Origin: Corynebacterium glucuronolyticum
GTDB lineage: Bacteria; Actinomycetota; Actinomycetes; Mycobacteriales; Mycobacteriaceae
Length of the DNA: 64,000 nt
NCBI GenBank assembly: GCA_022772305.1
Contig: JALFAQ010000058.1
Span: 1 to 64,000, forward strand
Reading direction: 5' to 3'
The position numbers and the translations under genes are program-made. Position 1 is the first letter of the stretch. The number at the start of each line of letters is the position of its first letter. Below the pieces are notes generated by a model, which was not told where the DNA came from, searched no databases, and was given only the letters and a program-made list of their open reading frames with translations. Positions 6,598 through 55,877 of this stretch are shown here, piece by piece.

Positions 6598-6813
6598 CCT
6601 AAAACCGAACGGGGTCAATATGGGGGTAGGCACGTTAAATCTAAATCTCCGCACTGATAAAGTACAGACAAGGTAGCAATACCTTTCAGTTGCTGTGCCG
6701 ATGTGCGTTGGAATCCGCAGTAGCTGAAGTAATAATTCAGACGTCCATCGCGCCGCTCGCCTCACAGCGGTATATGAACACGGGAGAGAACGCTGAGCGT
6801 TACATATTTGTCC
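6598..6813. promoter_or_regulatory. Likely promoter/leader region of the atp operon
   Basis: A 216-base non-coding stretch ahead of atpB, longer than other gaps in this gene run, so a dedicated promoter with a 5' leader is likely. AT-rich stretches occur (gttaaatctaaat, agtaataattcag), but I cannot pick a confident -35/-10 pair. No riboswitch was recognised. Confidence 0.4.
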
Positions 6814-16289: not shown

Positions 16290-16583
16290 ATGATGATTGC
16301 TTTCTCAGTCGCGCCCGTTTCCGAGGAAATGTCCGAAGCGGTAGCGCGCGCCGTCAAAATTGTCCGAGAATCTGGTCTCCCCAACGAAACTAACGCCATG
16401 TTCACCCTCGTTGAGGGTGAGTGGGACGAACTTATGGACGTTGTGAAACGTGCCACAGATGCCGTTTTGGAGGTCAGCCCCCGCGCTTCGCTTGTCATCA
16501 AGGCCGATATCCGCCCCGGTTGGAATAATCGTTTGACCGGAAAGGTTGAGGATATGGAAACGGCTATGAAGGAGTTGAAGTAA
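16290..16583 (+). CDS. UPF0045/MTH1187-type thiamine-binding-like protein
   Basis: 97 residues matching the small ferredoxin-like MTH1187/YkoF family: IAFSVAPVSEE, AVARAVKIVRESGLPNETNAM, LVEGEWDELMDVVKRATDAV and a basic C-terminal strand region (VIKADIRPGWNNR). Members of this family bind thiamine-like ligands and form tetramers; the physiological role here is unknown. The ATG at 16290 is preferred; an ATG follows at 16293. It is directly followed, with no gap, by the thioredoxin/TPR gene, so the two are likely co-expressed. Confidence 0.8.
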   Translation: MMIAFSVAPVSEEMSEAVARAVKIVRESGLPNETNAMFTLVEGEWDELMDVVKRATDAVLEVSPRASLVIKADIRPGWNNRLTGKVEDMETAMKELK

Positions 16584-42943: not shown

Positions 42944-42976
42944 CAAAAACCGCGTCAGGTGAAAATCTGACGCGGT
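42944..42976 (-). terminator. Terminator of the small minus-strand peptide gene
   Basis: Stem accgcgtcag/ctgacgcggt (42949-42958 and 42967-42976). The T tract (tttttg) is on the minus strand, so it ends transcription coming from the 28-residue ORF at 43070-43156. Confidence 0.85.
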
Positions 42977-43069
42977 GTGTTCTTCACTTCGGCTGGGGTA
43001 GAGCTTGTTGCTCAATCTCAGCTTTGTCGTCAGCCTTACTAGCCGAGGCTGACATATTGAGTGTATGTG

Positions 43070-43156
43070 TTAAGCGGGAACAGCCATGATGAGTACGGAC
43101 TGGAACAGTACGCCAGCTGCCATCAGGCCACCGAGAATGTACGACAGACGAGACAT
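43070..43156 (-). CDS. 28-residue single-span membrane peptide gene
   Basis: Too short for the ORF track. Minus strand CTGGAGGAAAA stands immediately before ATG at 43156, an excellent ribosome binding site. The product is MSRLSYILGGLMAAGVLF... ending SVLIMAVPA, that is, one basic residue then an almost wholly hydrophobic stretch, a likely single membrane helix. An intrinsic terminator with a U tract lies about 95 bases after the stop. It stands alone, divergent from purL. I do not recognise the family; small transporter subunits, membrane regulators and porin-like peptides are all possible. The three independent signals (ribosome site, peptide composition, terminator) support a real gene. Confidence 0.65.
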   Translation of the reverse strand: MSRLSYILGGLMAAGVLFQSVLIMAVPA

Positions 43157-43199
43157 TTTTCCTCCAGTAAAAGTTTCAAACCAACATAGTCGGGTAAGG

Positions 43200-43216
43200 G
43201 TTCAAAATGGTTGAAC
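43200..43216. promoter_or_regulatory. Palindrome GTTCAA-N5-TTGAAC in the purL/small-peptide divergent region
   Basis: gttcaaaatggttgaac has perfect 6-bp arms with five-base spacer and lies 44 bases upstream of the small peptide gene start (minus). It is suited to a dimeric repressor or activator. The rest of the region to 43582 is AT-rich, with no other recognised feature. Confidence 0.45.
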
Positions 43217-43582
43217 AATTTCCCGAGCCGAGAGGTAACCATACACGTTTTTTCGTGCTTGTCTAGTCCTACTTTCTTGAGTCTTACCCGTAAGACGAAA
43301 TAAAAATAAGCAAAGTACAACCATGAATTAAAATGCTTAAGTTCGCTCGTAAATTAGCATTGTTTCGTGTTGAATAGTTGTCAGTTGCCAAAAATGTCAA
43401 TTTAAACCTGTGAGTAAGGAACTAGTGATTTCCGGGCAAATCAGGATGAACGATTGTCTTGTCTAAGATCACTGGTTGGGCAACTCTGTTATCTGGCACG
43501 GAACTACCGAGTGAGGTGCAGCTGGACTAGACTTACTGCGGAAGAATAGCCAAATTTAATGCAAGGAAGGCCCCTCCATCTC

Positions 43583-46500
43583 ATGGATGCACGTCTCGCA
43601 GTTCGCCGCAAGCCTCAGTTCCGCGACGAGGAGCGCGCGCTGCTTGCAACACTCAATAATCTTTCAGGTGTTCAGCTCGATGCCGTTCAAATCATCAACC
43701 TTTATGATGTCTTCTCCGCAACGGAAACAGATATTGCTGCGCTGAGCACGTCCATCGTGTGTGACGACCGCGTTGATACGCAGCTTTCCGCGGAGGATCT
43801 CACCCAGGTCCTTAACGATGCATCCGGGTTCCTCGCAGTAGAGCCGCTACCGGGCCAATACGATCAGCGTGCAGATGCAGCCAACCAGGCCCTTCGCTTG
43901 GTACAGCCCGAAACTGATGCGTCGATTTACTCGGCGGTGCTCTACGTTTTCGAGCCTGCCCAGTCCGATGAGGCACGAAACGCCATTCGGTCCTTCCTCA
44001 TCAACCCGGTTGAAGCGGGGGAGAAGGACATAAAGGTCCTTCAGGCACCGGCTACGGGGGCGGTTGAGCCGCTGCGCCAGTACCCGGGATTCAATGAGCT
44101 GGATGAGGCTGGCCTCGAAGCACTCATCGCTGAACGTGGCATGGCTATGAACCTTGCAGATCTTGCCACCATTCAGGAGTACTTCCGTGAGGAGGGGCGG
44201 ACTCCAACGGATGTTGAGCTTTCGGTTCTCGATACGTACTGGTCGGATCACTGCCGTCACACCACCTTCAACACGGAGCTCACGGAGATCGTCAACGAGG
44301 GCAGCAAGTTTAAGGATCAGCTCGCCCGCGCATTGAAGCGTTACGACGAACTGCGCGAGGCCAACGGCCGGACCCACAAGCCCCGCACTCTCATGGATAT
44401 GGGCACGATCATGGGGCGCGAACTTCGTCGCACCGGTGTGATGGATGATCAGGAAGTCTCCGAGGAGATTAACGCCTGCTCCGTGTACGTTGACGTTGCA
44501 CCAGGCGACTCCGCATCTCACGCTGCTGAGCGTAGCGAAGCAGCGCGTAGCGAAGCAGCGCGTAGCGAAGCATCACCATGGCTTCTCATGTTCAAGAACG
44601 AGACGCATAATCACCCGACGGAGATTGAGCCGTTCGGTGGCGCTTCCACGTGTTTGGGTGGCGCGATCCGCGATCCTCTTTCCGGTCGCTCGTGGGTGTA
44701 CCAGGCGCTGCGCCTGTCGGGTGCAGGAGACATCAACACGCCACGTGAGGACACCCTCGAGGGTAAGCTGCCGCAGTCCGATATTTCTGCGCGCGCTACG
44801 TCGGGTTACTCCAGCTACGGTAACCAGATTGGGCTGGCAACCACGAACGTGCGGGAGTTCGTCCACCCGGGGTACGTGGCCAAGCGCATGGAGCTCGGCG
44901 CCGTCGTCGCCGCCGCGCCTGTGGAGAATGTGAAGCGCCTGGATCCGGCAGCGGGTGACGTGGTTATCATTCTCGGCGGTCGGACCGGGCGCGACGGGAT
45001 CGGCGGTGCCACTGGCTCGTCCAAGGCGCACACCGACACGTCCCTTGCCACCTCCGGTGCCGAGGTGCAAAAAGGCAACCCGGTCAATGAGCGCAAGATT
45101 CAGCGGCTGTTCCGCAATCCTGAGGTTGCCCAGATGATCGTTCGGTGCAACGACTTCGGTGCCGGTGGCGTGGCCGTCGCCGTTGGTGAGCTTGCCGATA
45201 GCCTCGATATCCACCTTGACCGCGTGCCACTAAAGTACGCAGGTCTCAACGCCCGCGAGATCGCGATTTCTGAGTCGCAGGAGCGCATGGCTGTTGTCGT
45301 GCGCGCGAACAATGCACCTCGCTTCATTGAACTGGCGGAGACGGAAAACCTCGAGGCGACGCAGCTCGCAGAGGTGACAGACTCAGGTCGCCTGCGGATG
45401 TTCAACGGCGAGGATCTGGTCCTCGATCTGTCGCGCGCTTTCATCGATACGAACGGCGCTGCACGGTCCCAGTCTGTGTCGCTTGTCGACGCCCCCATGG
45501 CAGCCCCGCACGCAGCTCCGGCGAGCGTTGCTGAGGCTCTCGCCACGCCTGCCGGCGGGTCGCAGGAGGGCATGGTCGAGCAGTTCGACTCTACCGTCGG
45601 CCGCTCCACCGTTCTTATGCCCTTCGGCGGAAAGAACCAGAAGACCTACGAGATGGCTTCCATTCAGGCACTGCCTGTCGAGGGTGGCACCCCGACCTCC
45701 TCCGTCATGACGTACGGCTTCAGCCCGGAGCTGGCGAGCGAGTCGCCGTTCCTCATGGGTGCCTACTCCGTGGTAGAGGCTCTTGCGCGCCTCACCGCAG
45801 CCGGTGCCGATGCCACCACCGCATGGCTGACCGTGCAGGAGTACTTCCAGCGCCTCGACCAGGAGCCGGAGCGCTGGGGTGAGGTTACCCAGGCGATCCT
45901 TGGCCTGTTGGAAGCCCAGGATGCGTTCCAGGTCGCGGCCATCGGCGGTAAGGACTCAATGAGTGGCACGTACGGCGAAGAACTACACGTCCCGCCGACG
46001 CTCGTCACCTTCGCCGTCGCCGTGATGGACAAGGTCGACGCAATCAGCGCTGCCGTCCCCGAGGCAGATCTTGATCTGTACCTCCTGCCGCATACTCCAC
46101 TGGAAACCGGTGAACCGGATTACGCAGCACTGCGAAAGAATTACGCTGCTTTCACCGAGCTTGCCGCCACCGGAAAGGTGCCCGCCGCATCCGCGGTCAC
46201 CCAGGCCGGTATCGGTGCCACTATTGTCAACATGGTTGCAGGCAACGCCCTCGGCTTCACCGGCACCGCCGATGTGTCGTGGGTGGATAACACCCTCGGC
46301 TCCCTCGTCTTCGCCGTAGCAGAAGGAGCCAGTGTTCCCGAGGGGGCAGTGCTCCTTGGACAGACCACCGGCGACGGTGAGCTGAGCTTCGGCGAGGAAC
46401 ACCTGAACGTCGACAAGGCTGTGGAAACGGCGGAGGAGCGGTACCGTACCGTCTTCCCGCTCAACGATGCGTCGTGTGACGCGTTGCCCTCCTTCGCAAC

Positions 46501-47362
46501 CGATCTGCCTGATCCGACACCTAGTTCTGCAGACGCGTCAGCTACGTCGGACGGCCCGGCACCGCACGTCCTCCTGCCGGTATTCCCCGGTACCAACTCG
46601 GAGTACGACATGGCGGAGGCCTTCCGCGCTGCCGGAGCCACTACGGAGTTCCTTGTGATCCGCAACCTCTCCCCGCAGATGCTGGAAGAGGACACGCAGA
46701 TTTTCGTCGACAAGCTCTCCCAGGCTGAGATCCTGGCCTTCTCCGGTGGCTTCTCGCTCGGTGACGAGCCGGATGGTTCCGCCAAGTTCATCGCGGCCTT
46801 CCTCCGCACCCCGAAGGTTGCCGATGCGGTGAGCGACTTCGTTGCCGGCGACGGCCTCGTTCTGGGTATCTGCAACGGCTTCCAGGCGCTGGTCAAGAGT
46901 GGCTTCCTGCCCTACGGCGACCCCGCACAGCTGACGGAGACCTCGCCTACGCTGACGCACAACCGCCAGCTTCGCCACGTCTCCCGCATCGCCACCACTC
47001 GTGTCGCCTCCGTGGATTCCCCGTGGCTTGCCACCTTCACCCCGGGGCAGAAGCACCTCATTCCTGTGTCACACGGCGAGGGGCGGTTCGTTGTCAGCGA
47101 AGAGGATGCGAAGCAGCTCTTTGCCAACCACCAGGTTGCCTTCCAATACGTGGATGAAGAGGGGACCCCGACCATGCAGGCACCGGCGAACCCCAACGGC
47201 TCCAGCTACGCCATCGAAGGCATCGTCTCCCCAGACGGCCGGATCCTAGGCAAGATGGGCCACCCGGAGCGCTTCCGCGACGGCTTGATGAAGAACATCC
47301 CCGGCATCTACTCGCAGGACATTTTCCTCAACGCGGTGAACTACTGCAAGAACAAGAAATAA
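43583..47362 (+). CDS. purL: Phosphoribosylformylglycinamidine synthase, large single-chain type
   Basis: Converts FGAR, glutamine and ATP to FGAM in purine synthesis. About 1,259 residues hold the PurS-like N terminus, two AIRS-type halves (DTYWSDHCRHTTFNTEL, FKNETHNHPTEIEPFGGA, IILGGRTGRDGIGGATGSS, IGGKDSMSGTY) and a C-terminal glutaminase (VFPGTNSEYDMAEAF, FSGGFSLGDEPDG, catalytic Cys in LGICNGFQALVKSG, HGEGRFV). Most actinobacteria use separate PurL, PurQ and PurS; this fused form is known in bifidobacteria, clostridia and proteobacteria. A (RSEAA)x3 stretch interrupts the sequence right before the catalytic FKNETHNHPT. ATG 43583 (MDARLAVRRKP) fits family N termini better than the listed 43559. 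Confidence 0.93.
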   Translation: MDARLAVRRKPQFRDEERALLATLNNLSGVQLDAVQIINLYDVFSATETDIAALSTSIVCDDRVDTQLSAEDLTQVLNDASGFLAVEPLPGQYDQRADAANQALRLVQPETDASIYSAVLYVFEPAQSDEARNAIRSFLINPVEAGEKDIKVLQAPATGAVEPLRQYPGFNELDEAGLEALIAERGMAMNLADLATIQEYFREEGRTPTDVELSVLDTYWSDHCRHTTFNTELTEIVNEGSKFKDQLARALKRYDELREANGRTHKPRTLMDMGTIMGRELRRTGVMDDQEVSEEINACSVYVDVAPGDSASHAAERSEAARSEAARSEASPWLLMFKNETHNHPTEIEPFGGASTCLGGAIRDPLSGRSWVYQALRLSGAGDINTPREDTLEGKLPQSDISARATSGYSSYGNQIGLATTNVREFVHPGYVAKRMELGAVVAAAPVENVKRLDPAAGDVVIILGGRTGRDGIGGATGSSKAHTDTSLATSGAEVQKGNPVNERKIQRLFRNPEVAQMIVRCNDFGAGGVAVAVGELADSLDIHLDRVPLKYAGLNAREIAISESQERMAVVVRANNAPRFIELAETENLEATQLAEVTDSGRLRMFNGEDLVLDLSRAFIDTNGAARSQSVSLVDAPMAAPHAAPASVAEALATPAGGSQEGMVEQFDSTVGRSTVLMPFGGKNQKTYEMASIQALPVEGGTPTSSVMTYGFSPELASESPFLMGAYSVVEALARLTAAGADATTAWLTVQEYFQRLDQEPERWGEVTQAILGLLEAQDAFQVAAIGGKDSMSGTYGEELHVPPTLVTFAVAVMDKVDAISAAVPEADLDLYLLPHTPLETGEPDYAALRKNYAAFTELAATGKVPAASAVTQAGIGATIVNMVAGNALGFTGTADVSWVDNTLGSLVFAVAEGASVPEGAVLLGQTTGDGELSFGEEHLNVDKAVETAEERYRTVFPLNDASCDALPSFATDLPDPTPSSADASATSDGPAPHVLLPVFPGTNSEYDMAEAFRAAGATTEFLVIRNLSPQMLEEDTQIFVDKLSQAEILAFSGGFSLGDEPDGSAKFIAAFLRTPKVADAVSDFVAGDGLVLGICNGFQALVKSGFLPYGDPAQLTETSPTLTHNRQLRHVSRIATTRVASVDSPWLATFTPGQKHLIPVSHGEGRFVVSEEDAKQLFANHQVAFQYVDEEGTPTMQAPANPNGSSYAIEGIVSPDGRILGKMGHPERFRDGLMKNIPGIYSQDIFLNAVNYCKNKK
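44531..44575. repeat. 15-bp tandem triplicate within purL
   Basis: cgtagcgaagcagcg occurs at 44531-44545 and 44546-44560, and the third unit ends in tca (44561-44575). The repeat keeps the frame and encodes RSEAA, RSEAA, RSEAS. Confidence 0.95.
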
Positions 47363-50951: not shown

Positions 50952-51641
50952 CACGGGGGCACAGTACCGCGAAGAGTATGCGGAGATGCCTTCGAAGAGG
51001 AGTGCCAGCTGCAAAACCCGCTCTCAGCGCATTCCTACCTTCTGACTTAGATCTGATCTAGACAGTTAATCCAGGGCATTGTCAGTACCCTTCACCGCCA
51101 CAGGGCTAAATGTGTTTGGGGCAATAATAAGAATGTGCTTAGTTAAACCTTAACGCTTTAATTTTGATCAAAAATGATTTTAACGGCGTTGAATACGTAA
51201 CATGCAAAACTGCTCTTGGGTCAAGTCTGAGTGTCATTCTGACTGGAGGCTGAGTAAAGCTTAGTATGCTGTTAGTGTGGCCGATGTGACAAAACTGCAA
51301 AATGGGGGGTAGTAGGAGGTAGCGGTTCTTCTGGGGGGAGTATTTTGAAACAAAACTAGAAAGCATGTTTTTGGGGCAATACTTACCAAAGAGTAAGAAA
51401 AGTAAGGCGAGCAGGTGCTCACGCTATTCAGCCTCTCCATAGCCCGTTAATTGGGGGTCGCCATTCGTATAGCGGTTTGACCAGTACAACATGCAGTTTG
51501 AATTCTTCGTGAACATCGAGTTGCGCGCCTTGCGCAATGCTTGAGTATGTGATTTTATTAAGTATGAAATTTAAGAAACCTTAATACTGGCTTAATTACA
51601 GGCTTGAAACTAGTTATTGCCGGTGTCTCATGGGAGGTATA
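50952..51641. other. Long AT-rich region before the calcium-repeat protein gene
   Basis: 690 bases, distinctly AT-rich. No ORF, RNA gene or terminator was supported. It has tttgatcaaaaatgattt near 51160 and repeated taaacctta/aaaccttaa words (51140, 51573), which could be binding sites. A long untranslated leader or several promoters for the following surface protein are likely here. GGGAGG (51632-51637) is the ribosome binding site of that gene. Confidence 0.4.
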
Positions 51642-54600
51642 ATGAGTTCTTCATCCCGCGGAACCCAGAGAGCGCTACGGCGCACTGGGTTCCGTCTCGT
51701 TGTGGCTACGGCCACGTCTTTATCTGTCGTTGCGGGGGTGACGGTTGCACCACATGCTCCCATCGTTCCTGTGGCCAATGCTGCGCAGCCAGCATTGGCT
51801 GACAACAGGCCAGACTCTTTCAAGGACGCAGATACGTGGAGATTCTATGCAACTGCGCTTGGTAGAAGCGGAACAGTAGTTGCCATTCCTCGCGGCCGCT
51901 ATGCGGTGCAAATGGACCACAACTTTGAGGGACCTGAGGTCTACAACGGCTTCAACGGTATGTCGCTTTTCACCAAGAATTGGGAAAAGTGGGATAAGGC
52001 TTCAGAACCTCTGACGGAGACCTTTGGCCCGCGTACCGAGTATGGGGAATCCGGAGCGCCGCAGTGGGGGACCATTGAGCCGGCGCGAAAGAATGCGGCA
52101 AGAAATCTGCTTAAGCTGTACCTCGACGATTACGTCAACAAGAAATTCCCGGCAGCTAACCGCAAGCTCGTCGCGCTTCAGATCCTCCTTGGTTCAGGAG
52201 ACGGTGGAAAGAAGAAGCTTGCTGATTGGGCTTTCGGGACTGAGGACGAGAGGAAGGAATTCCTCAAGTGGACAGGGTACACGCTGTATACCGAGGATAG
52301 CCTCGGTCGCGACGCGGTCGGTTTCACATTTGACCACAATGTAGACGTTCCTGCCAATGCGCCGGAACTTCGCGTTGTCGTGCCGGAAGGATTCAAGAAG
52401 GACGGGAAGGGACACGCTCAGGACACGCCTGCACGTGTCCTCGTTGTTGACCTTGAGGGAGCCCTCAAGCACAAGGACGATCAGCCTACGCCTAACCCCG
52501 GCAGCCAGGATGATGACAACGATGGCCTGACAAACGATCAGGAAAAGGAAATCGGTACCGATCCGAATAACCCCGACACCGACGGCGATGGCATCAATGA
52601 TGGTGACGAAGTCAACGGAACGAAGAACCGCTTCCCGAACAGCAAGTACGATCCGAATGGCAAGCCCGGCAACACGAATCCGCTAGACAAAGACTCTGAC
52701 GGTGATGGTATCACTGATGGTGACGAGCTTGACCCGAATAAGGCCGGCCATGTTGTCACTGATCCGAATAACAAGGACACCGACGGCGATGGTCTGACTG
52801 ATGGTGACGAAGTCAACGGCACGAAGAACTCCCAACCTGGGAAGTCTGATCCGACTGGCCCTGAAGGCAACACGAGCCCTGTAGACCAAGACTCTGACGA
52901 TGACGGTATCTCCGACGGTGATGAGCTGAACCCGAACGAAGGCAGCCGCATTGTCACCAACCCGAACGACAATGACACCGACAACGACGGCCTCACCGAT
53001 GGTGAGGAAGTCAACGGCACACGCAACCCGTTCAGGAACGACAAGGCTGACCCGCAGGGGAAGCCGGGCAACACCGATCCGACGAACAGGGATTCCGATG
53101 GTGACGGGCTCACTGATCTCGATGAGGTCGACCCGACCACCGGCACCACAGTCGTTACCAACCCGAACAAGGCTGATACCGACGGCGGCGGTGTCGACGA
53201 CAAGACGGAAACCGACAACAAGACGAATCCGAACGATCCGTCTGATGATCATGGCAAAGATAACCCGAAGCCGGGCGATGACGGCTCTGCTGATCCTGAT
53301 AAGGATGGCCTGACCAACGACGAAGAGAAGGAACACGGCACCGACCCGTATAACCCGGACACCGACGGCGATGGCATCAATGACGGCGACGAGGTCAACG
53401 GTTCGAAGAACCCGTTCAAGGACAACAAGTCCGATCCGAATGGAAAGCCCGGCAACACGGATCCGAGGAACCCGGATACCGATGGTGACGGCATCATCGA
53501 TGGCGACGAGGTAGATCCCGATAAGGCGGGTCATGTCGTCACAGATCCTAACGATAAGGACTCCGACGATGATGGCTTGACCGACGGTGACGAGGTATAC
53601 GGTAACCGCAACCCGTTCCCCAGCAAGGCTGATCAGCAAGGTCCTGCGGGAAACACGAACCCCATGAATGATGACACCGATGGTGATGGCATCAACGATG
53701 GTGATGAGCTCAACCCGAATAAGGCCGGACACGTTATTACCGATCCAAACAACAAGGACACCGATGGCGACGGTCTGACTGACGGAGACGAGGTCAACGG
53801 CACGAAGAATGATCAGCCAGGGAAGGCTGATTCGAATGGTCCTGAGGGCAACACGAACCCCAAGAACCGCGACACCGACGGTGACGGTATCGAGGATGGC
53901 GAAGAGCTCGACCCGAACAAGGCTGGGCATGTTGTTACCAACCCGAACAAGAAGGACACCGACGATGACGGTCTCACTGATGGTGAGGAAGTCAACGGCT
54001 ACCGAAACCCGTTCAAGAACGATAAGTCTGATCCGCAGGGGGAACCGGGCAACACCGATCCCACCAAGAAGGATTCCGACGGCGATACGCTCACTGATGG
54101 TGACGAGCTCGACCCGCACACCGGCAGCCCGATTATTACCAACCCGAACAAGCGCGACACCGACAATGGTGGAGTCGACGACAATAAGGAAATCGACGAC
54201 GGCACCAGCCCGAACGATCCTTCTGATGACGGCAAGAAGCCGGGCGACAAGCCTGGCGATGAGCCGGGCAAGGATGATGGCTCTGCTGATCCTGATAAGG
54301 ATGGCCTGACCAACGACGAGGAGAAGGAACACAGTACTGATCCGTATAACCCGGATACCGACGGCGATGGCATCAATGATGGTGACGAGGTTAACGGTTC
54401 GAAGAACCCGTTCAAGGACAACAAGTTTGATCCGAACGGCAAGCCCGGTAACACCAACCCGCTGTCCAAGGACACCGACCGTGATGGCCTGCACGATGGT
54501 GACGAGCTTGATCCGACGATCGGTTCTGACAAGGTCACTGACCCGAACGATCCGGACACGGATGATGGTGGTGTCAACGACGGCACCGAGGTAAACAACA

Positions 54601-55877
54601 ACGGAACTGATCCGACTGATCCTTCTGACGACGGCAAGAACCCTGGTGATAAGCCTGGTAAGGATGATGGTTCTGCTGATCCTGATAAGGATGGCCTGAC
54701 CAACGACGAGGAGAAGGAACACGGCACCGACCCGCAGAATCCGGACACCGATGGTGACGGCCTGAAGGACGGTGACGAAGTCCACAAGCACGGCACGGAT
54801 CCGAAGAACCCGGACACCGATGGTGACGGCCTGAAGGACGGCGACGAAGTTTCGGGTGACAAGAACCCGTGGGGTGATCCCACCAACCCGAAGAAGTCCG
54901 ACTCCGACGGAGACGGCATCGAAGATGGCGACGAGCTCGATCCGGGTAAGGGCGGCAACCGAATCACCAACCCGGCGGACCCGGATACGGATGATGGTGG
55001 TGTCAACGACGGCGACGAGGTCAACAATGGCACCGATCCGACCAACGGCTCTGATGACCACAAGAACCCCGCTGATCTGCCGAAGTACGACGGCAACGCT
55101 GATCCGGATAACGATGGCCTGACCAACGACGAAGAGAAGGCAATCGGTACCGATCCGTCCAACCCGGATACTGATGGCGATGGCATCAGCGACGGTGACG
55201 AGGTCAACGGCACCCGCAACCCGTTCAAGGACAACAAGTTCAACCAGAACGGCAAGCCGGGTAACACCAACCCGCTGAACAAGGACACCGACGGTGACGG
55301 CTTCACCGATGGCCGTGAGATCAGCCCTGCAAACGGTGAAAAGCAGACGGACCCGAATGCTTTCAACACCAACCCGGGCACGATCGGCAAGGACGATGCC
55401 CCTGCGACCGACGCAGGCAGCGCAGAAGGCTCCAGTGCCGGCAAGTGCTTCCAGCTCGCCACGAACTCCTGGACCAACCCGCTGCTATGGGGCTTCCCGC
55501 TCGCTGCGCTGGGTCTGCTGTCCCAGGTAGAGATTCCTGCACTCCCGGCATCTGTCCAGGATGAGCTCCGTCGTCTGAACCCGTTCGGCGACAATGGTTT
55601 CCAGCAGCCGCAGTGGATGCGGGACGGCAACGCCTGGCTTGCTTCCATCGGTGCACAGATCAACATTCCTGGCATCCTGACCCTGCTTGGTGCAGCCGCT
55701 TTCATCGCGGTAACCGGTGCTTACTACGCATCTAAGTGCACCTCCGGCGTGGGCTGGGACTTCTCGGAAGTCTCCGATGGTGAAAACGCCAACCTTTCGT
55801 CCAACGACAAGATGATTCCGGTCGAGGGCTCCTCTGTTGAGCCGTCCAAGGAAGAAAACGCTGACACCAACAAGTAG
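51642..55877 (+). CDS. Giant secreted protein with about 30 Asp-rich calcium-binding (thrombospondin type 3-like) repeats
   Basis: 1,411 residues. Signal peptide ([24 protein letters not shown], cleavage likely after VANA). Residues about 45-285 form a domain I do not recognise. Residues about 288-1229 are about 30 units of DxDxDGxxDGDEx, the calcium-binding loop of thrombospondin type 3/TSP3 repeats, spaced by [17 protein letters not shown]-like linkers and arranged in about five blocks, several opening with [16 protein letters not shown]. Then a hydrophobic C-terminal region ([31 protein letters not shown]) and an acidic tail; no LPXTG. It is probably a calcium-stiffened cell-surface stalk. 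ATG 51642 behind GGGAGG is preferred to 51630. Confidence 0.88.
52507..55330. repeat. Imperfect repeat array encoding the Asp-rich stalk
   Basis: Repeated gacaccgatggtgacgg-like words with alternating unit lengths. The longest near-identical segments (tctgctgatcctgataagga followed by tggcctgaccaacgacga) recur at about 53285, 54282 and 54673. The array could change length by recombination while staying in frame. Confidence 0.9.

Follow-up and report, generated by a model that had tools for sequence, protein, structure and literature searches.

Organization of the locus

The window, by which we mean the whole 64,000-nucleotide stretch of Corynebacterium glucuronolyticum DNA that was analysed, contains a 28-codon ORF on its minus strand at 43156-43070, which reads GGAGG-AAAA-ATG, 28 codons and TAA. 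Its neighbours lie on the plus strand: on one side are what we take to be the genes for a giant fatty-acid synthase and AcpS, and on the other is presumably a long single-chain purL, all named by sequence recognition and not by family search. The features of the minus strand are listed below together with their state in G116, the genome of a second Corynebacterium species that carries the peptide gene.

43070-43156, minus strand: 28-codon ORF, MSRLSYILGGLMAAGVLFQSVLIMAVPA; ATG start, TAA stop; one predicted transmembrane helix at about residues 4-26; 28/28 residues the same in G116
43161-43165, minus strand: Shine-Dalgarno sequence GGAGG, 4 nt 5' of the ATG; G116 copy identical
43260-43265, minus strand: putative -35 element TAGACA; hexamer also present at the homologous position in G116
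43238-43243, minus strand: putative -10 element TATGGT (fits TAnnnT); 16-bp spacer
43205-43243, minus strand: conserved block running from the -10 element into the 5' UTR, TATGGTTACCTSTCGGCTCGGGAAATTGTTCAACCATTT; a single mismatch to G116
42977-43069, minus strand: 3' UTR, 93 nt; not conserved with G116
42949-42976, minus strand: intrinsic terminator hairpin, U tract at 42948-42942; homologous hairpin in G116

The putative promoter, TAGACA-16-TATGGT, is sigma-70-like, spans 43265-43238 on the minus strand and is the single such site upstream of the ORF. From it, a transcript start is expected near 43231, a position inferred from the hexamers, and the predicted transcript would be about 290 nt long, of which about 75 nt would be 5' UTR. 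The terminator hairpin, ACCGCGTCAG-ATTTTCAC-CTGACGCGGT followed by TTTTTG (42976-42949, minus strand), has 10 pairs, starts 93 nt 3' of the stop codon and has its U tract facing the minus strand. A preliminary description of this DNA had pointed to the ribosome site and ATG, the hydrophobic ORF and the hairpin with its U tract on this strand, and we found all of them in place. Scans for promoter-like and terminator-like sites return counts close to those in shuffled sequence, so base composition alone proves none of these elements. No same-strand gene lies between the ORF and the terminator, and acpS, which comes next, is encoded on the opposite strand. We rejected a leader peptide or attenuator, since the terminator at 42949 closes the unit ahead of acpS and no same-strand gene follows downstream.

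The ORF in a second species

Among the 242 Corynebacterium genomes searched, which include the window genome and G116, a match to the peptide is absent from the other 240. In G116 the gene occupies the same place between acpS and purL. The two species are well diverged, with AcpS only 64-65% identical and purL at a dN of 0.048 and a dS of 1.14, whereas the peptide is identical at 28/28 residues and its ORF has a dN of 0 and a dS of 0.19. The four nucleotide differences in the ORF are all synonymous and at third positions, falling in V21, A25, V26 and A28 (GTA/GTC, GCT/GCA, GTT/GTC and GCT/GCC, respectively), and the stop codon is kept. Of the single changes possible in the ORF, 29% are synonymous, which gives four out of four a chance of about 0.007. 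This one species pair supplies all of the conservation evidence; within that pairwise comparison, the substitutions show purifying selection on the amino-acid sequence.

For comparison, we collected 333 start-to-stop ORFs, nested starts included, from the 9.4 kb of intergenic sequence in the window. Only two fully identical frames of at least 28 amino acids occur in this set, the peptide ORF and AtpE, a known gene that sat among the intergenic ORFs because the gene list used a 90-amino-acid size. A plus-strand ORF that overlaps the peptide gene (43086-43214) was considered and rejected: 28 of its residues are conserved at 96%, whereas conservation does not extend to the remaining third or to the end of the frame.

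The first 20 codons of the peptide ORF show zero codon differences between the species, whereas in purL 43% of the identical residues use a different codon. Such constancy occurs elsewhere among the 26 window genes measured: over the first 20 codons, AtpB and the gene at 16290 likewise have none, AtpE has one, and several more have only one. The resemblance to AtpB and AtpE fits a well-expressed gene. The constant early codons are accounted for by strong expression or by selection acting on translation initiation, with no need for a second function at the RNA level.

Conservation of the flanking signals

G116 has the same promoter hexamers at the same spacing, and no other promoter-like site was found at matching positions in the two species. 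The two sequences differ once between the -10 element and a point about 30 nt inside the predicted transcript. A 25-nt piece of this block (43205-43243) occurs once per genome in both genomes when up to 3 mismatches are allowed, which rules out a regulon-wide site of this length. The block also holds, at the expected transcript start, an inverted repeat (ATGGTT-24-AACCAT) that could serve as an operator. Conserved RNA structure in the 5' UTR is unsupported, as the 5' part of the transcript folds no better than shuffled sequences (z -0.19).

The terminator hairpin is retained in G116: a single compensatory pair change (A-U to G-C) separates the two copies, the U tract is on the same side, and the plus-strand side of the G116 hairpin has no T tract. 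This bears out the earlier proposal that the terminator serves the peptide gene. Conservation is absent from the 3' UTR and from the sequence above the promoter. Judged by sequence comparison, this pattern of conservation is that of a monocistronic protein-coding gene, and very probably the locus is a real monocistronic small-protein gene. The preliminary description had suggested as much and had listed a lack of conserved start and stop or of synonymous bias in relatives among the findings that would speak against it; instead G116 retains the start, stop, ribosome site, promoter and terminator, and the changes in the ORF are purely synonymous.

Distribution of the peptide

With tblastn, the search that had been recommended for corynebacterial genomes, the peptide gives its 28/28 match in G116 and weak matches only elsewhere. 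The latter (about 48% identity, E 0.09-1) were rejected because they lie inside longer frames or are antisense or low-complexity readings; no short hydrophobic ORF preceded by a ribosome site is among them. Two further genomes, G124 and G192, match at the DNA level at the ribosome site; the matching sequence there is the start of an aldehyde-dehydrogenase-like gene and shares only GGAGGAAAAATGTCTC. At equivalent positions in other species, a similar short ORF is present neither at the 21 loci ahead of long-form purL nor at the 28 loci that follow acpS.

More distant searches were likewise negative. In a sample of 299 genomes from the order, nothing elsewhere matched at E 0.1 or better, and plasmids and phages gave no match at E 10. 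The peptide has no match in Pfam, NCBIfam, PHROGs, PADLOC or the PDB. A degenerate DNA pattern found no match in viral contigs and only two matches, both judged to be chance, in a species-level genome collection, which may omit near relatives of the window; the two lie in a Clostridiales and a Cysteiniphilum genome. By these searches, the peptide is without detectable relatives beyond one sister species, at a sensitivity that for 28 residues is limited to about 50% identity, so that diverged relatives may exist.

Predicted properties and proposed role of the peptide

The peptide has one hydrophobic segment of transmembrane length, with a mean Kyte-Doolittle value of 2.06 over the best run of 19 residues, and R3 is its only charged residue. 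A per-residue insertion scale, applied without position weighting, sums to +1.2, which is slightly unfavourable owing to the G, S and Q residues. Membrane insertion without a partner could thus be weak, and a near-zero to slightly unfavourable sum would be in line with a helix whose stability depends on having one. Small-residue motifs of the GxxxA type let helices pack closely.

We propose that this is a stand-alone gene whose own housekeeping-type promoter and terminator would yield a transcript of about 290 nt encoding a single 28-residue membrane peptide. The peptide would cross the cytoplasmic membrane once, with its N-terminus (MSR) probably inside according to the positive-inside rule. 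A face of small residues (S5, G9, A13, G10 and A14; motif GGLMAAG) probably packs against a helix in some larger membrane protein or complex, of which the peptide, made constitutively and in high amounts, would be an accessory or regulatory subunit. We are highly confident that the gene specifies a translated membrane peptide, although we infer its transcription, translation, insertion and topology from sequence. The role that we favour by a modest degree is that of an accessory or regulatory subunit, contributing a single helix to a larger membrane protein. Full identity of 28 residues despite saturated synonymous sites implies that most positions contact something. It is doubtful that the peptide belongs, as a lineage-specific subunit, to an energy or transport complex that is itself universally conserved (e.g. 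the respiratory supercomplex, ATP synthase or Sec); it would then have arisen, or become unrecognisable, in one small Corynebacterium clade and been frozen there by selection.

Several known small membrane proteins offer parallels. KdpF, at around 29 residues, is a single hydrophobic helix and resembles the peptide in both size and build; KdpF differs in being a subunit of KdpABC. It was ruled out, as KdpA is absent from both the window genome (G000) and G116, and the KdpF model gave no match to the peptide. CydX and CydZ form a sequence-poor family that is often missed by annotation (PMC4325964). The peptide gene shares with them a short single-helix product and a strong ribosome site, whereas cydX and cydZ sit in cydAB operons and the gene described here stands alone. 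This assignment was ruled out too, since G116 is without CydA, the CydA of the window genome is broken, and the locus stands alone. On the evidence of the broken cydA and the failure to find CydA in G116, cytochrome bd oxidase appears to be lost in the clade. The cydA fragment, which contains an internal stop, lies on contig C74 of the window genome (4571-5001, locus L096) and adjoins apparent ABC-transporter (cydDC-like) remnants.

AcrZ binds the transmembrane part of its transporter AcrB (PMC7267776). Regulators of this type likewise have a free-standing gene and a single helix but no sequence match to the peptide, and an AcrZ-like function is possible. The role first suggested for the peptide, a regulator of a membrane complex or a transporter subunit, is retained in its general form as a proposal, while its specific KdpF and CydX versions are excluded.

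Alternative explanations

The peptide might instead be secreted or act at the surface, as a signal, a bacteriocin-like peptide or a cell-wall channel, and not as a subunit in the cytoplasmic membrane. We consider this unlikely. A stand-alone gene restricted to two species would suit it, and corynebacteria are known to have tiny cell-wall channel peptides that carry no signal sequence; however, 28/28 identity across diverged species is unlike signal peptides or bacteriocins, which diversify, and the flanking genes are acpS and purL, with no adjoining transport, immunity or processing genes.

A type I toxin, that is, a small hydrophobic pore-forming peptide checked by an antisense RNA, is improbable. 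The peptide resembles TxpA, Fst and TisB in size and hydrophobicity, and the single transmembrane helix, dedicated terminator, roughly 75-nt 5' UTR and highly conserved DNA of the ORF start and 5' UTR would all be in keeping with such a system. Charged C-terminal residues are a usual feature of type I toxins (PMC6563280), whereas the C-terminus here is uncharged, ending in LIMAVPA. Moreover, no plus-strand promoter-like site that could drive an antisense RNA is conserved in both species, the gene is single copy and lies outside any prophage or plasmid, and the toxin families in Pfam, PHROGs and PADLOC give no match.

We assign just as little probability to an RNA product, either small regulatory or dual-function, in which the ORF would be incidental or secondary. 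The unusually constant synonymous sites of the first 20 codons and the constant block at the transcript start speak for it, but changes in the ORF are exclusively synonymous with the stop retained, the transcript is not conserved between stop and terminator, AtpB and the gene at 16290 are equally constant in their early codons, and the 5' part shows no folding beyond that of shuffles. Finally, a chance ORF in a non-coding region is highly improbable: the ORF is short and its signals are of kinds about as frequent in shuffled sequence, but the whole set of elements is conserved in a species whose synonymous divergence is saturated, and apart from AtpE no other intergenic ORF of this length is fully identical.

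The finding adds a small-protein gene that is well supported and invisible to sequence-family searches, and the analysis shows that a two-species comparison can tell such small genes from chance ORFs. Once the partner is identified, it would become clear how a helix specific to one clade came to be fixed in a membrane complex.

Other observations in the window

The single-chain long PurL is encoded at 43559-47362 on the plus strand, and its first 314 residues match in only 23 of the 242 genus genomes, the window genome included. These matches fall into two groups, with 67-91% and 42-44% identity, which suggests more than one origin for the long PurL. The stretch ahead of it (43480-43580, plus strand) is about 90% identical to G116 across the leader and gene start, is separate from the conserved block of the peptide gene, and is a possible regulatory leader of purL. 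An Rfam atpB RNA (RF02916) is located at 6684-6806 on the plus strand, upstream of the ATP synthase genes. At 51630-55877, also on the plus strand, a 1415-residue ORF is only about 66% identical to its G116 counterpart and far more variable than most genes in the window.
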